In this document: positions 4,474 through 11,135 of the stretch, in pieces | Numbering within the stretch: the stretch's first letter is position 1 | How the letters are laid out: each line of letters opens with the position of its first letter | DNA from: a virus | IMG/VR virus record: IMGVR_UViG_3300037285_000174 | Location: 1 to 46,085 of that record | Reading direction: 5' to 3' (one strand) | Length of the DNA: 46,085 nucleotides | Notes under the pieces: model-generated | Told to the model about the DNA's origin: nothing | Seen by the model: only the letters and a program-made list of their open reading frames with translations | The model's database searches: none | Made by a program: the position numbers and the translations under genes

Positions 4474-4481
4474 TATTTATG
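4474..4481 (-). promoter_or_regulatory. Possible T4-type late promoter CATAAATA
   Basis: CATAAATA on the minus strand, overlapping the portal stop codon and ending five bases before the ATG of the 83-residue gene. It matches the NATAAATA form of the gp55-dependent late box. Transcription would begin at or just past that ATG, so it would better serve the genes further downstream. It could be chance in AT-rich DNA. Confidence 0.35.
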
Positions 4482-7476
4482 ATCCAAACGGCGCATCGCC
4501 GCCTTGCGCATCTGCCGGTGCGCCGCCAAGGTTGCCAGCGCCGCCTGCAGTATCGTCTACATCGATATCTGATTCAGGACCGTCTGCTGCACCCATGTCT
4601 GCACTAATATCTGCTCCAGTAATGCCTGCATCTCTCATTTGTGCGCTTGCATCCTGTTCTCCGGTTTCGAACTCGTCTTCGTTCTCTTCTCTCCACTGTG
4701 TCTCGTTGGCAGTAATTTCTTCTTTGCTAAGTCCAAGGAATCTTTCCATTGCAAACCGGTTAGAAATAAACGGAATAGCCTGCATAGATGTAAATGTTGA
4801 AATTCTATTGCTGTCAAGTTCTGCTTGACGATAGCTTGCAAAGTTTTGTGGCGGCTGTAGTTTTAGATCAAACATTGCAACATCGATGTTGATGCCTTTT
4901 TGGCTTAGATAAAGCTTGAATTCTTTGTTGAACACTTCTGCAACCAGGCTCTGTAGTCTCTCGCAATAGTTGTTAAATCGTAGTTCTTGGATGTAAGCAG
5001 TACCTACTCGACCGTCATTGAATTGGCTTGCACTATCATCTGCACCAGTTGGAAGGTATGAACTAGGAATGCGCAGACCACGTAACAGTTTGTTAGTAAA
5101 GTATCTTAAGTCGTCAATCTCTCCAAGATTAGTTCCTCCTGGAAGTGTTTCAACTTTTGATCCTCTGCCTTCGGCAGTTTGTGGAAAGAAGTAGTCTTCA
5201 TTGATGGAGTTCTTAACAAAAATGCCACTTTCGATAGCAAACGTGTGATAGTTGTGCCATTTTTCAGTGCCGTCTATGGTAATAGTGCCTGTATCTCGAT
5301 TCGATACGGCTTCTATTTTTACTACCTTATGGTTAAACTGATCAATCTCTTTTACAAATTGTTTCCAATTAGCATATCCATTTTTCTTAAGAAGTCGATT
5401 TAGTTTACTATAACCAAATCGCGTAAAGTCAATCTTACACTGGGCGTTTTTATAATCAAGAGCAATAGAATTTTCTTTCTTCATTAGATCCAGTAACTCT
5501 TTGTTATTATCACAAAGATTAATTACGGTATTCTTGTTTGTCGACTGAGTCCTAACTATTTCCACAACTATCTGCAACATTTCAAATGTCAAACACAACG
5601 GTTGGTTTTTTATTTTAACTCTAGATTCTAAGTTTTTTAATACTTGTTGCATAGCATTTGGATTATTATTAAGGTAGTTTCTTCTAGATTTACCTGCGTT
5701 CTTTTTATAACTGGACATAGTAGCAGGATCATTCTGTCTCATCCACACTGATTTCTGTTGCGCTGACCTAATATTGTAGAGAACGGATTGTCTTTCTACA
5801 CCAGTCATGTTCTTCCAACGTGTTTTTAACGTATCAGAAATCTTTCCTGTAACCGTTTGAAATTCTTCTTCTGACAAGTTAAACCAGTAATCTGATTTAT
5901 TTGCAGCATGGTATTGTATGTGATCAGCTTTATTCATATATTGAAGATTCCGCGGATCGTTGTTAAAACGATTATAATCTTGGTGGTGTATTACTGCTTT
6001 AGATTTTCCTGCATTTTGTTCAAGATATGTAAATTCTTGATGTTTACTCAAGTTTCTAAAAAACTCGCCTACTACCCGATGAGTCCACTGCCATTCCTTC
6101 TTGCTGTGATCCCAAACTTGCTCATATTCATTGGAGTTCGACGATATCTTTTTGTTTCTCCTATTAAAAGATATTAAACTGTCAGTTTCAACAATGTCCT
6201 TGGCTTCTATCATGCCTTTTCCAAATACCGGTATCTTATGGTCCGGAGTACAAACCAAAGTTTCACCATTATCAAATGTTAATTGAATAGTTTGTGTATT
6301 CTTACGAGTGATACCGGCCCAGTTAATTACCCCTGGCGCTACTTTACCAGTTATAGGATCACAACTGTATGCCCAGTTTTCTTTGCCTTGCTCAAACTCT
6401 GCAATTAACTCAGTTAGTTCCAGTGTTCTTCCGTCGAGTAAAGGAATCCTTGTGGATAAATCTAAACAGAGAGGATTATAGCTGCTGTCTATAACAGTTT
6501 GGCCTCCGCCTGTCTTAGACGGAATACGTCTCTGGTGAATTTCTGTTTTTACTCTTTCCACAAACTGCATAGCAAGGTGACTCGGCATGTTGCCAACGTC
6601 TACATAGAATACTCTGCGCTCTGGCGCACGCTGAACGCGGTAGATGATAATTGCATCCTCTAGTAATTCTTTTTGCTTGTAAACTTTAAAGATGCTTTCC
6701 AGCAAACTGTTGCCAAACGGGTAGTTTTGATCCATTCCTTCGCTAAGAGACATGTGTATAACGTGTTCTGCATCGATTGCAGTTTCGTTTGATTCGTTTG
6801 AGAAGCGACTGTTATTAGTACCCGGAGTACTGTTTGGTGCGTCGCCGCCGCTGCCCATTGATGGGCCGCCCATGCCGCCTGCGCCGTTTGGTCCATATGC
6901 ATTAGTGGTGTTGAGCTTGGTTGCTGACAATCCTTCAAATGATATGTTTATATCTTTGATCATGTATTGCTCTGGGCGCTTGCCTTCGCTTTCGTTTACA
7001 ATAATTTTAGTTAAATTAGCAGTATCGACATGGAACCACTTTTTAGTTTCTGGATCTCTAAGAAAGAATTGATCGCCATACTTGAAAATGTTTCTAATAA
7101 TTTTATACATGCGTGTTTCAAATTCTTGCAACTTTGCCCATCGGTGCAAGTACTGACTTAAAATTTGAACTTCGCTGTTTGTAGGCGCGCCATTGTATTC
7201 AATCTTAAACGGTGTATTGTTTTCTTTGTTCTTTTGAGTACAAAATTCAGCAAGGATATCTAGTGCTGCATTAATTTCTGAATCAGTGTCCATGGTATTG
7301 TATTGCCCATACCGTTCAACACGGTTGGGGTTACCAACATAAACATCTGGGAGATGTGAACTATAGTTGGAAGCAGCTGGGCCTAGCCCTTGCCCTTTTG
7401 AAAAACTAAACGGGCTATAACTGCCGCCCTGATTCATACTAGTTGGAACAGGGGAGAAATATTTTTTCCACGACAT
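4477..7476 (-). CDS. 20: Portal vertex protein gp20 containing an in-frame intein
   Basis: 999 codons. The exteins form the T4-type portal, the dodecameric DNA channel at the head-tail vertex. N-extein landmarks are ERYGQYNTMDTDSEINAALD, EFETRMYKIIRNIFKYGDQF and APERRVFYVDVGNMP; C-extein landmarks are INEDYFFPQTAEGRGSKVET, LPGGTNLGEIDDLRYF and LLRGLRIPSSYLPTG. Between SSYNPL and SINEDYFF lies a 420-residue insert (residues 337-756) with intein features, annotated separately. Removing it joins YNPL to SINEDYFF and leaves a 579-residue portal, the usual size in marine T4-like phages. The acidic Gly/Ala/Asp C-terminal tail is also typical. The start is an ATG with AAGG about nine bases upstream. 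Portal identity is certain; splicing is inferred. Confidence 0.95.
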   Translation of the reverse strand: MSWKKYFSPVPTSMNQGGSYSPFSFSKGQGLGPAASNYSSHLPDVYVGNPNRVERYGQYNTMDTDSEINAALDILAEFCTQKNKENNTPFKIEYNGAPTNSEVQILSQYLHRWAKLQEFETRMYKIIRNIFKYGDQFFLRDPETKKWFHVDTANLTKIIVNESEGKRPEQYMIKDINISFEGLSATKLNTTNAYGPNGAGGMGGPSMGSGGDAPNSTPGTNNSRFSNESNETAIDAEHVIHMSLSEGMDQNYPFGNSLLESIFKVYKQKELLEDAIIIYRVQRAPERRVFYVDVGNMPSHLAMQFVERVKTEIHQRRIPSKTGGGQTVIDSSYNPLCLDLSTRIPLLDGRTLELTELIAEFEQGKENWAYSCDPITGKVAPGVINWAGITRKNTQTIQLTFDNGETLVCTPDHKIPVFGKGMIEAKDIVETDSLISFNRRNKKISSNSNEYEQVWDHSKKEWQWTHRVVGEFFRNLSKHQEFTYLEQNAGKSKAVIHHQDYNRFNNDPRNLQYMNKADHIQYHAANKSDYWFNLSEEEFQTVTGKISDTLKTRWKNMTGVERQSVLYNIRSAQQKSVWMRQNDPATMSSYKKNAGKSRRNYLNNNPNAMQQVLKNLESRVKIKNQPLCLTFEMLQIVVEIVRTQSTNKNTVINLCDNNKELLDLMKKENSIALDYKNAQCKIDFTRFGYSKLNRLLKKNGYANWKQFVKEIDQFNHKVVKIEAVSNRDTGTITIDGTEKWHNYHTFAIESGIFVKNSINEDYFFPQTAEGRGSKVETLPGGTNLGEIDDLRYFTNKLLRGLRIPSSYLPTGADDSASQFNDGRVGTAYIQELRFNNYCERLQSLVAEVFNKEFKLYLSQKGINIDVAMFDLKLQPPQNFASYRQAELDSNRISTFTSMQAIPFISNRFAMERFLGLSKEEITANETQWREENEDEFETGEQDASAQMRDAGITGADISADMGAADGPESDIDVDDTAGGAGNLGGAPADAQGGDAPFGS
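5209..6468 (-). mobile_element. Intein with HNH homing endonuclease domain inside gp20
   Basis: A 420-residue in-frame insert. It begins with Cys (CLDLSTRIPLLDGRTLEL), the nucleophile of class 1 inteins. Block B is visible as GETLVCTPDHKIPVFG around intein residue 75, with the TxxH motif. Around residue 160 lies an HNH-type segment, HHQDYNRFNNDPRNLQ followed by MNKADHIQYH. A basic region with putative DNA-binding character follows (residues 200-360). The C-terminal block is KWHNYHTFAIESGIFVKN followed by Ser. The final Asn and the +1 Ser are standard; the residue before Asn is Lys, where His is common. The insert lies in a highly conserved portal segment, as homing elements usually do. Because translation stays open on both sides, a self-splicing intein is far more likely than an intron. 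Confidence 0.88.
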
Positions 7477-7499: not shown

Positions 7500-9959
7500 T
7501 CACAAGCCTGCGCCTTTGAACATATCTGTTCCTAATCCGCGCATACTTTTTCTTGTTTTTTCCTGAACGTTAACACCTTGTTGTGTAGCGGCCAGTAATC
7601 TCATTATACTACTATTTACTTCATTTAGCTTGTCGACCACTTGTGTCTGAGTATTACCCGAGTCTGACGAAATTATTTTAGTCTGTTGTGCTGCCAGACG
7701 TTCCAATATTTCTTCTATGTCAGGAGTAGGAGTTGCAGTGTTACTCATCACAGCCGGAGTCGGTCTGCTACCATTCTGAAACCCATTTATATTATTTTGG
7801 TTATCAAAGAAATTTGATAGCATTTCACCAGCAGGTGAATCTCTTGGCACAACTGCTTCCGATCCGTGTAACATAACCGGAGTGCCGGCGCCAAATTGTT
7901 CAAATCCGTCTGTACCTGTGTTGTACTGGAGCAGGGATTCCAACACATTTAGTCTATTTTGTGCATCCCAAAGCGCCTGAGGATCTCGATACCCGCCCAC
8001 TATATTAGTGTTTTCAGGGCCTGAAAGTCGAGCAACTTCTGCTTGCATCCTTGAGAGTTCGGTGCGAAGAGATTCTTGATTTTCTTCTCCGCCAAATTCC
8101 CTTCGTACCGATTGGTCTTCTCTGCTTTGTTCTAGAGCTCTATCGTTGATAAACAGTCCGCCGAAGCCATTGTTAAGTGTGTCAAATAAATTAATTATTT
8201 GATCTTCTAAAAATAATCTCATAGAATCCAGCATGCCTTGCACTGCAGAACTTTCCCAGAGATCAGTTATTTTTTCAATTATATATGTAGAAACATTTTC
8301 AAATGCAGTACTAATAGAGTTTCGCAACTCTACATTTTCAAACAATCTAGTAAATGCGCCAGACATCATACTACCAAAATCAACAACTTCCTCAAGCAGT
8401 GCGTTCCATAACCCGACTTCGCCTACATTATCAATAAATTCTTTTCCCCACTTGCCGACAGCTCTAAAACCGTCAGCAACCTTTGTAAGAGAAGTCTGAA
8501 AAGTTGGCGAATTAAAGAAGTCGGATGCCCACCTTAAGCCATTAGTGAATACGCCGGTTGTACCAAATAAATATCTCATAGTATTAGTGATAGTAGTTTT
8601 CATTGTAGAAAACGCACCAGTTGACCCGGATCCAAATGCATCCATTATATCGTTGCCAATGTTGCCAAGCTCTGTTACAAATGCGCTGTCAATAAATGTA
8701 TTAAACAAGAAAGATCTAAATGCAACCAGTGCCTGTTCAAATTTTCCCAGTGTACCAGTTACTCTATCTGTGCGACGTTGTTCAGCTTCTGCTTCTGCAG
8801 TGTTCATGTTCATTATGGCAGAAAGTTCGTGCCCATTGTCTACTAATGACGCCATGGCTCCTTGCACTCCGCCCATTCCTCTAAGAACTTGTAATGTAGC
8901 ATCTGGCATTTGTCGTGCAAATTGTTGCAAATGTGGCTGAACATTATTAGCCATATAATCTACATACTCTGCTTGGCTAACCGAACCTTCGCCAACTCGT
9001 TGCATGAATTGTGTTATTCCAGGAACTGCATTTTGCAATGCGCGACCTATGTCGGATTGAGCTACTCCGTCGCTGAGATCCAACAACGAGTCATGGAAAC
9101 TTGGCAGTACAGTTTTTTGTAAAGTGTAAATTGATCTAAGTTCTTCTGCCTTGGCTGCTCCTAATTGTTCTTCTACTCTTGCAAGTTGATTGCGAACCTG
9201 GCCGTCAGTTTGTAATGCTGCCTGAGAATCCATCAGAGCTTCGCGCTGTTTGCCAGTTAATTTAGCAAGTTTATCCAATTGCATGATATATTCTGCTGCA
9301 CCTGCTTGAGATTCGGCATCACTTCTAATGTTTCGTCTTCCGCGCATGGTTTCTAATGTCATATAACCAATCAGCGCTTCATTGACATTTTCCATTGTCA
9401 AACCCATTTCAAAGAACCGTTGTCCAATTCCCATGCGCACATCTCTGCTGAATTCGCCAATAAGTTTAGCACCTTGTGTTGCACTGCCGCCGAACCTAGC
9501 AAGTTCTTCGCTGTTGCTTCTGACCATGCCGACAAAGTCATCCAGGCTCATTGATGCATCAACACTGGTTCTTACCATGTCTACTAAACTGTTGTTAAAG
9601 CTTGCGCCAACTGACGATAAATCTCTAAACTGATCAACTGTTTTGTCAACGAAGTTTACAAAACGAGTTATTCTTCCGTTCCCTAACAACATTTCAGAAA
9701 AGTCACCAAGTCGGTTTCCTGTAATCAACAGCTTTTCAGCAAATGTTTTAGCTGCACCGGTACCTGCTTTTAAGCCTTTAACAAATTTGCTTTGCTCTTT
9801 GGTAGCGGCTGTTGTGGACCTAGTTTGTAGATCTCTTAATCTCTGTTCGGAGGAGTTTCCAGCGGGTCCTGTACCTTTGACTGCGTCTATAAGTTGTAGT
9901 AGCGTTGCTTCACTGGCGACTCCTCGGCCGCCTACATTTTTAATTTCAACTTCATCCAC
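7500..9959 (-). CDS. Tail tape-measure-like protein (gp29 role suspected)
   Basis: 819 residues, large and mainly helical. The region from about residue 70 to 600 has repeated amphipathic and hydrophobic helices (VDKTVDQFRDLSSVGASF, FRSFLFNTFIDSAFVTEL, TNTMRYLFGTTGVFTNGL). Near the C-terminus stands FGAGTPVMLHGSEAVVPRDS, close to the G-x-x-x-LHGxEAVVP motif common near the end of many tape-measure proteins. The last part is a coiled-coil (EEILERLAAQQTKI). The start is GTG (9957-9959) with AGGA about 11 bases upstream; no nearby in-frame ATG exists. It sits between the portal and the divergent hub-assembly gene, which fits a tail-length ruler next to its assembly chaperone. T4 gp29 is shorter (about 590 residues), so orthology is not claimed. 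Confidence 0.62.
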   Translation of the reverse strand: MDEVEIKNVGGRGVASEATLLQLIDAVKGTGPAGNSSEQRLRDLQTRSTTAATKEQSKFVKGLKAGTGAAKTFAEKLLITGNRLGDFSEMLLGNGRITRFVNFVDKTVDQFRDLSSVGASFNNSLVDMVRTSVDASMSLDDFVGMVRSNSEELARFGGSATQGAKLIGEFSRDVRMGIGQRFFEMGLTMENVNEALIGYMTLETMRGRRNIRSDAESQAGAAEYIMQLDKLAKLTGKQREALMDSQAALQTDGQVRNQLARVEEQLGAAKAEELRSIYTLQKTVLPSFHDSLLDLSDGVAQSDIGRALQNAVPGITQFMQRVGEGSVSQAEYVDYMANNVQPHLQQFARQMPDATLQVLRGMGGVQGAMASLVDNGHELSAIMNMNTAEAEAEQRRTDRVTGTLGKFEQALVAFRSFLFNTFIDSAFVTELGNIGNDIMDAFGSGSTGAFSTMKTTITNTMRYLFGTTGVFTNGLRWASDFFNSPTFQTSLTKVADGFRAVGKWGKEFIDNVGEVGLWNALLEEVVDFGSMMSGAFTRLFENVELRNSISTAFENVSTYIIEKITDLWESSAVQGMLDSMRLFLEDQIINLFDTLNNGFGGLFINDRALEQSREDQSVRREFGGEENQESLRTELSRMQAEVARLSGPENTNIVGGYRDPQALWDAQNRLNVLESLLQYNTGTDGFEQFGAGTPVMLHGSEAVVPRDSPAGEMLSNFFDNQNNINGFQNGSRPTPAVMSNTATPTPDIEEILERLAAQQTKIISSDSGNTQTQVVDKLNEVNSSIMRLLAATQQGVNVQEKTRKSMRGLGTDMFKGAGL

Positions 9960-10038: not shown

Positions 10039-10911
10039 ATGGAACCATCATTAACAACAGAGCCGACACACAACCCACTATCAAAACATTTTAGACAACC
10101 CAAGTTGTTTGTAGAATTGCCCAGTCGAGGACAGTACTACGCCGATGGTGCAATTGTTATTCCGTCTAATAATCAATTTCCTGTTCTTGCAATGACTGCA
10201 AAAGACGAATTGATGTTTAAAACACCAGATGCGTTGTTAAATGGACAGGCAACAGTTAGTGTTATTCAAAGTTGTTTTCCGAGCATTAAAGACGCATGGA
10301 GTGTTCCAAGCATTGATATTGATGCAATTCTAATTGCTATTCGTATTGCAACATACGGAGAGTCAATGGATCTTGACATTAAAATTCCTAACACCAACGA
10401 GGAAAGAGGATTTTCAGTTGATCTAAGAGTAATGTTGGATACGTTGTCAGCAAGCGAGTACAACAACATATTAGAGTTTGGTGCATATACTTTTGAATTA
10501 CGTCCATTAAATTATAAATCGTATACCGAAACTGCAATGAAAACATTTGAAGAACAAAGAATTTTTCAAACTATAAACAATCAAGATTTAGATGATACAC
10601 AAAAATTAGAAATGTTTACAAAGAGTTTTGACAGGTTGACTGATATCAACATCAGTCAACTTTCAAAAACAGTGGTATCTGTTAGTTATGGTCAAGAAGA
10701 TGCAGTAACTAACCCAGAGTTTATTGCGGAATTTTTCGAGAACACTGAAAAAGAAGTATTCAAATCAATCATTGACAGAATCGATGAAGAGAAAAAGAAA
10801 TTTGCAGTTAAGCCGCAGCTGATCACCACATCCGACGAAGACAGAGAAAAGGGTGCGCCGGAAACTTTTGAAGTGCCAATCACGTTTGACCAAACTAATT
10901 TTTTCGCATAA
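10039..10911 (+). CDS. gp26-like baseplate hub assembly protein (unshifted product)
   Basis: 290 residues from an ATG with GGAG eight bases upstream. The N-terminal half carries the block typical of the T4 baseplate-protein family that includes gp26: LFVELPSRGQYYADGAIVIP, FPVLAMTAKDELMFKTPDAL, LNGQATVSVIQSCFPSI and WSVPSIDIDAILIAIRIATY. A helical middle and an acidic C-terminus (FKSIIDRIDEEKKKFAVKP) follow. In T4, gp26, gp28 and gp51 are needed for assembly of the central hub with the tape measure. Here the gene is divergent from the tape-measure-like gene. The C-terminal codons TTT TTC form a slippery site, so part of the ribosomes should continue in the -1 frame; see the 10899-10960 and 10039-11135 entries. 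The gene number is tentative, the family is likely. Confidence 0.75.
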   Translation: MEPSLTTEPTHNPLSKHFRQPKLFVELPSRGQYYADGAIVIPSNNQFPVLAMTAKDELMFKTPDALLNGQATVSVIQSCFPSIKDAWSVPSIDIDAILIAIRIATYGESMDLDIKIPNTNEERGFSVDLRVMLDTLSASEYNNILEFGAYTFELRPLNYKSYTETAMKTFEEQRIFQTINNQDLDDTQKLEMFTKSFDRLTDINISQLSKTVVSVSYGQEDAVTNPEFIAEFFENTEKEVFKSIIDRIDEEKKKFAVKPQLITTSDEDREKGAPETFEVPITFDQTNFFA

Positions 10912-11135
10912 GGATCTTAACCTGGCCTCTTGACAAAATTTTGGAAGAGGTTGAGGTCCTTGAAGCGGAATGTAAACAATTAAAATTTGATTTATCCAAG
11001 ATGTGTTGGTTCATGCGTGGAAGTGTAAGCCTCACAGAGGCTTACGAAATGTGCCCTGAAGACAGGGAGATTGTCTTTAAATTGATCAAAGAGAATTTAG
11101 AAACAGCCAAGGCAACCAAGCAACCGTTCTGGTAA
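10039..11135 (+). CDS. -1 frameshift extended form of the gp26-like protein (365 residues)
   Basis: After slippage on the heptamer at 10899-10905, reading resumes at 10905 (CGC) and stays open for 76 codons to the TAA at 11133-11135. The junction reads NFF then RIRILTWPLDKILEEVEVLE. The added part, with EAECKQLKFDLSKMCWFMRG and LTEAYEMCPEDREIVFKLIK, is clearly protein-like, ending ETAKATKQPFW. It has no credible start of its own: there is no ATG before residue 35 of the extension, and the TTG at 10941 has no ribosome site. The small Trp-rich helical extension resembles, in size and character, the frameshifted T or E' segments of tail assembly chaperones in lambda and P2, which sit beside the tape-measure gene as this one does. 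Frameshifting itself is inferred from the sequence signals. Confidence 0.75.
10899..10960 (+). promoter_or_regulatory. Programmed -1 ribosomal frameshift signal
   Basis: The heptamer T-TTT-TTC (10899-10905) is in the X-XXY-YYZ register of the upstream frame. Five bases later a hairpin begins: AGGATCTTAACC (10911-10922) pairs with GGTTGAGGTCCT (10949-10960) over twelve pairs, two of them G-U. TCTT (10928-10931) can pair with AAGA (10945-10948) inside it. An alternative stem CCTCTT/AAGAGG competes for two bases. The upstream stop TAA (10909-10911) is at the foot of the stem. Slippery site, spacer and stem all meet the usual design of -1 frameshift sites. Confidence 0.78.
11025..11045. other. 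Perfect 9-base-pair hairpin inside the frameshift extension
   Basis: GTAAGCCTC and its exact reverse complement GAGGCTTAC are separated by three bases (ACA), giving a stable stem within coding sequence about 90 bases before the end of the frameshifted frame. No T run follows, so it is not an obvious terminator. It may attenuate read-through towards the convergent gene or be incidental. Confidence 0.5.

Follow-up and report, generated by a model that had tools for sequence, protein, structure and literature searches.

Phage lambda makes, from its G/GT genes, a short tail assembly chaperone and, by a -1 slip, a minor C-terminally extended one, and the slippery heptamer used there is GGGAAAG. 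Tail assembly chaperones are as a rule frameshift products, and T4-like phages have been cited as departing from that rule. Vladimirov et al. (2022) reportedly dealt with the chaperone genes of T4-like phages. As that work is represented in a later paper, some T4-like phages do not frameshift and instead possess one short gene plus one longer, fused gene (PMC10885494, citing Vladimirov et al. 2022); for part of the T4-like phages a frameshift may therefore already have been described. A conserved -1 frameshift with a poly-T motif and a C-terminally extended chaperone is known from the Vandenendeviridae and Andersonviridae (PMC12846349). The T4 proteins gp26 and gp51 are counted among the hub assembly chaperones, and gp51, though needed, does not occur in the finished particle (PMC3004832).

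We analysed a stretch of viral DNA of 46,085 nt (IMG/VR record IMGVR_UViG_3300037285_000174), hereafter called the window. Judged by its sequence, one of its loci very probably encodes a short and a long tail-assembly chaperone by programmed -1 frameshifting on the heptamer T TTT TTC. The features of the locus are as follows:

10039-10911, + strand: gp26-like gene, 0-frame short product of 290 aa, ATG at 10039 with GGAG upstream
10899-10905, + strand: slippery heptamer T TTT TTC, of the form X XXY YYZ, in phase with the gp26-like frame
10909-10911, + strand: 0-frame stop TAA, one codon past the heptamer
10905-11135, + strand: -1 frame extension of 76 aa, putative gp51-type C-terminal domain of the long product (codons 10905-11132, TAA 11133-11135)
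10910-10961, + strand: candidate stimulatory stem-loop (5' arm 10910-10922, 3' arm 10949-10961, loop of 26 nt)
7500-9959, - strand: divergent large gene, probable tape measure protein and likely client, by the same-position genes in relatives

Direct reading confirmed three elements of the preliminary description: the heptamer at the end of the gp26-like gene, the open -1 frame of 76 codons (10905 to 11132), and a 12-pair stem with two G-U pairs five bases downstream, which was right base for base.

Slippery heptamer and stem-loop of the gp26-like gene

The core of the gp26-like protein was matched by PF12322 (T4_baseplate; 1.4e-9, 38.4 bits, cut-off 24.5) and the protein by the baseplate hub family phrog_150 (1.8e-13), and its predicted fold resembles T4-like baseplate hub assembly proteins (best E 6e-22, TM 0.85). 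PDB sequence searches with the gp26-like core and with the extension returned nothing meaningful, and at the DNA level the window locus matched nothing in the phage collection.

The 3' end of the gene reads AAT TTT TTC GCA TAA. The gp26-like protein, used as query against IMG/VR, brought up 385 related stretches, of which we retained the best 80 and combined them with six isolate phages (Atu_ph07, Phosso, PA5oct, 121Q, RaK2 and GAP32); those that reach the end of the extension make up 56 distinct loci. T TTT TTC stands in phase at the gene end in 56 of these 56 loci, very divergent relatives included, and the 0-frame stop in the relatives usually lies 1, 3 or 4 codons past it (maximum 15). The codon before the heptamer specifies varying residues (N, D, T, S, H, R) and its third base is always T; Phe-Phe elsewhere in the gp26-like genes is written TTTTTC in only 2 of 19 cases. 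Because all 56 loci have the heptamer at the gene end, and the 15,393 codon positions of the gp26-like genes contain no second TTTTTTC in frame, its presence there is far beyond chance. A second scan, with the extension alone as bait, fetched 65 distinct loci, some on contigs shared with the first set, and the heptamer is present in all 63 that have the whole N-terminus. The conservation of the heptamer, which the preliminary description had named as a check, is thus invariant in both sets. Eight contigs from metagenome-assembled genomes also have it, and XacN1 and RAS14 show T TTT TTT, which is also slippery, followed by the -1 extension. Such contigs are held by bacterial and archaeal metagenome-assembled genomes (L190-L197; Neomarinimicrobiota, Pelagibacter and others), where they are probably mis-binned or derived from infected cells.

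The stem (10911-10922 with 10949-10960) is lengthened by an A-U pair (10910/10961), and with its onset 5 nt past the heptamer it lies in the window within 5-9 nt of the slip site. The 75 nt past the heptamer (10906-10980) have a minimum free energy of -23.5 kcal/mol, with a z of -3.4 against dinucleotide shuffles (0 of 200 as low) and of -2.35 (p ~0.01) against synonymous-codon shuffles of the -1 frame. For the relatives we used shuffles of the same 75 nt that keep the -1 frame protein and its codon usage; the mean z was -2.6, with p<0.05 in 36 of 56 loci, and control stretches in gp26 and in the tail of the extension gave a mean z of about -0.2, with 7-8% at z<-2. The stem is weak or not above this null in RaK2, GAP32, Phosso and some others, and therefore the stimulators may differ there.

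The 5' arm always sets in about 3-6 nt past the heptamer, and the 3' arm occupies one of three places: columns 51-63 from the heptamer start in group A, which includes the window, 37-46 in group B and 69-82 in group C. Paired cells amount to 95.9% in group A, 91.3% in group B and 91.3% in group C, against 28-59% in slid controls, and covariation lies above 500 of 500 shuffles in each group, although related rows inflate both kinds of count; in group A (17 distinct relatives; slid controls 28-55% paired) 12 cells have changed on both sides. The compensatory changes that the preliminary description had suggested looking for were thus found with all three positions of the 3' arm, and three separate partners for one 5' arm are hard to explain without selection for the stem. 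An Rfam search found no known element at the locus. A stem rebuilt with three 3' partners at one slip site offers a natural series for the study of stimulators.

Coding capacity of the -1 frame

The -1 frame is under purifying selection: over 41 pairs its median dN/dS is 0.13, whereas the other two frames give 1.1 and 1.6. The predicted structure of the extension is helical (pLDDT 88.8), and a structure search with these 76 residues, proposed in the preliminary description, gave no significant match for what is a small helical fold.

In several records the extension is a gene of its own (121Q gp595, Munch_275, GAP32_242 and the 'gp51' of cyanophages), and in some loci (L003, L019, Atu_ph07, ValKK3) an ATG overlaps the 0-frame stop, as might be expected if it were an ordinary separate small gene, translated either from a start codon of its own or through re-initiation coupled to the gp26 stop. 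We consider this highly improbable, because the start is not conserved and the extension of PA5oct contains no ATG, GTG or TTG over its whole length. The first start codon in seven loci (L007, L009, L020, L051, L055, L057 and L072) is at +107, inside the domain, although conservation of the extension begins at the slip site, well ahead of that position, and several loci have no start codon ahead of the central MRG motif. Neither a start codon nor a ribosome site of the second frame was found to be conserved when the relatives were examined for them, in agreement with the preliminary description, in which the frame lacked both. A separate gene would also leave the invariant heptamer and the stem unexplained. 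Where an ATG overlaps the stop, a separate product might additionally arise by coupled re-initiation.

The six consecutive T of the heptamer bring to mind a fusion through slippage of RNA polymerase, not of the ribosome, but six T are short for this, as bacterial transcriptional slippage generally needs longer runs, and the selection of phase (a prior codon ending in T, then TTC) together with a downstream RNA stem at fixed spacing is a ribosomal pattern; transcriptional slippage appears even less probable than a separate gene. Finally, single-base indels in homopolymers are a common error, but the idea that a sequencing or assembly error split a single gene into two frames is refuted by the relatives and has a negligible probability, since more than 100 distinct loci, and isolate genomes that were sequenced independently, share the frame break.

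Relation of the extension to T4 gp51

T4 gp51 consists of a gp26-like domain and a C-terminal segment. By profile comparison, the extension is homologous to this C-terminus: hhalign gave a score of 26.05 over about 32 columns, against 10.0 +/- 2.1 for column-shuffled profiles (0 of 300 as high). With a shallow gp51 set a single-profile comparison reached only E 0.07, and the relation was clear with deeper sets. The single-sequence match of phrog_634 to the extension had only E 0.21; run on whole genomes, phrog_634 matched T4 alone, being too insensitive for the clade of the window.

Above the cut-off, one PF12322 gene each was found in 16 isolate genomes with the frameshift and in the 17 IMG/VR records searched, against two each in the T-even-type phages T4, 44RR2.8t, KM3 and G5211. 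The window, a 46-kb fragment of a virus that might encode a second, gp51-like gene elsewhere, also has one, and neither its large relatives nor the complete isolates have a second gp51-like gene, so that the two-gene arrangement of T-even phages is found in none of the window, the large relatives and the 16 isolates. The end of T4 gp26, read in T4 alone among the two-gene phages, is TTC TTT, without a slippery heptamer. Because of the single versus double PF12322 copies and the T4 gp26 end without heptamer, frameshift and second gene look like alternative routes to the long form. In the Klebsiella phage KM3 (L187:101-844 and downstream) gp51 directly precedes gp26 on one strand, whereas the two are divergent in T4; this arrangement may help to date the duplication.

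Among the cyanophages and KVP40-like phages the slip site was read in eight isolates and in the marine virus AG-345-L05. The gp26 gene ends in T TTT TTC in cyanophages and in the KVP40-like Vibrio phage ValKK3, and in T TTT TTT in Melnitz-3; in the cyanophages and ValKK3 the end of the -1 frame is the exact end of the annotated small 'gp51'. Extensions of the cyanophage type match T4 gp51 with E 7e-12, and tblastn with the extension of P-SSM7 retrieved 516 phage records. The cyanophage 'gp51' ORFs comprise the C-terminal part of the -1 extension with an internal start (L199:3657-3752 in P-SSM7, L203:1258-1392 in S-RSM4, L206:1258-1392 in S-CAM3), and many cyanophage records have similar 'gp51' annotations. 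Among the large phages, the extension is annotated as a separate hypothetical protein in 121Q (gp595), Munch (Munch_275) and GAP32 (GAP32_242) and is unannotated in PA5oct. In jumbo phages of the 121Q type, the frameshift extension that follows the gp26-like gene makes up the unnamed family phrog_18291 (121Q gp595; L086:3828-4037).

Because the extension is homologous to the gp51 C-terminus, and because PF12322 genes are single in some phages and double in others, the interpretation of gp26 and gp26-gp51 as a short/long chaperone pair, produced by predicted frameshifting here, in jumbo phages, in cyanophages and in the KVP40-like Vibrio phage, is supported. We further think it likely, with considerably less confidence than we have in the frameshift of the window, that the T4 superfamily (jumbo phages, cyanophages, KVP40-like phages and the uncultured clade of the window) ancestrally and almost universally obtains its long chaperone of the gp51 type by -1 frameshifting at T TTT TTC, that T-even phages owe their separate gp26 and gp51 to a derived duplication which fixed the short and long forms, and that what hundreds of records list as small 'gp51' ORFs are fragments of frameshift products. 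The exception ascribed to T4-like phages was seen only in T-even-type phages with two gene copies, and the other T4-superfamily phages examined keep the frameshift. This pattern suggests why T4 needs both gp26 and gp51 and gives gp51 a testable role as the long form of the chaperone; the frameshift reading also corrects annotations in many phage records.

Proposed products, neighbouring genes and known systems

The conserved heptamer, -1 frame and stem, the lack of a usable start, the gp51 homology and the PF12322 copy number all support the programmed -1 frameshift put forward in the preliminary description. One start would serve two products: most ribosomes would halt at the TAA (10909-10911) and release the gp26-like short chaperone of 290 aa, and a minority, in an event and at a rate that we infer, would slip by -1 on T TTT TTC, aided by the stem-loop 5 nt downstream, and bypass the 0-frame stop. 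The slipped product would be a long chaperone of 365 aa (...QTNFF-RIRILTWPLDK...PFW) to which 76 gp51-type residues are added. By analogy with lambda G/GT, the short form might coat the tape measure protein, and recruitment of tail tube subunits might fall to the extension of the less abundant long form.

The divergent neighbour, described earlier as tape-measure-like, does look so: family searches gave no match for the window copy (7500-9959) itself, and the genes at the same position in four relatives (L058, L080, L021 and L068) match PHROG tape measure families with E 8e-8 to 3e-15. The gp26-like gene therefore adjoins a probable tape measure gene as its divergent neighbour. The tape-measure-like genes of relatives encode about 650 to 1524 aa (L058:632-4900, L080:345-4916, L062:451-5010 and L082:874-4899, all on the - strand), and several contain cell-wall hydrolase domains (VgrG3-like C-terminal, GH19, SLT). 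A T4-like portal gene lies beyond the divergent gene in the window, Phosso, PA5oct, 121Q, RaK2 and GAP32; that of the window (4477-7476, - strand; PF07230) is split by an intein with an HNH endonuclease domain.

The preliminary description knew of no such frameshift as an established feature of T4-like phages. Lambda G/GT already provides this kind of mechanism, and Vladimirov et al. (2022), as known via citing papers, makes a frameshift in T4-like phages less new; in the literature thus covered we found no account of the clade of the window, of the jumbo phages or of the three stem forms.

The locus of the window resembles lambda G/GT in that slippage by -1 on a heptamer of the form X XXY YYZ, close to the 3' end of a short ORF, would give a minor extended product, and in that it adjoins the tape measure gene. 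It differs in its heptamer (T TTT TTC, not GGGAAAG), in its unrelated sequence family (PF12322), in being divergent from, and not upstream of, the tape measure gene, and in its strong, covarying downstream stem. The frameshift of Vandenendeviridae and Andersonviridae uses a GTTTTT motif and is comparable by mechanism. T4 gp26 and gp51 belong to the same protein family as the product of the window, in which a gp26-like core and a gp51-type extension are both recognisable; in T4, however, the two proteins have a gene each, with gp51 made up of a gp26-like domain plus the extension, and gene 26 ends without a heptamer. Closest in arrangement are the gp26 genes of the cyanophage and KVP40 type, with T TTT TTC or T TTT TTT at most one codon before the stop and a -1 frame that ends with the annotated gp51, although their extension is closer to T4 gp51 (7e-12) and they immediately precede a large gene of the same orientation.
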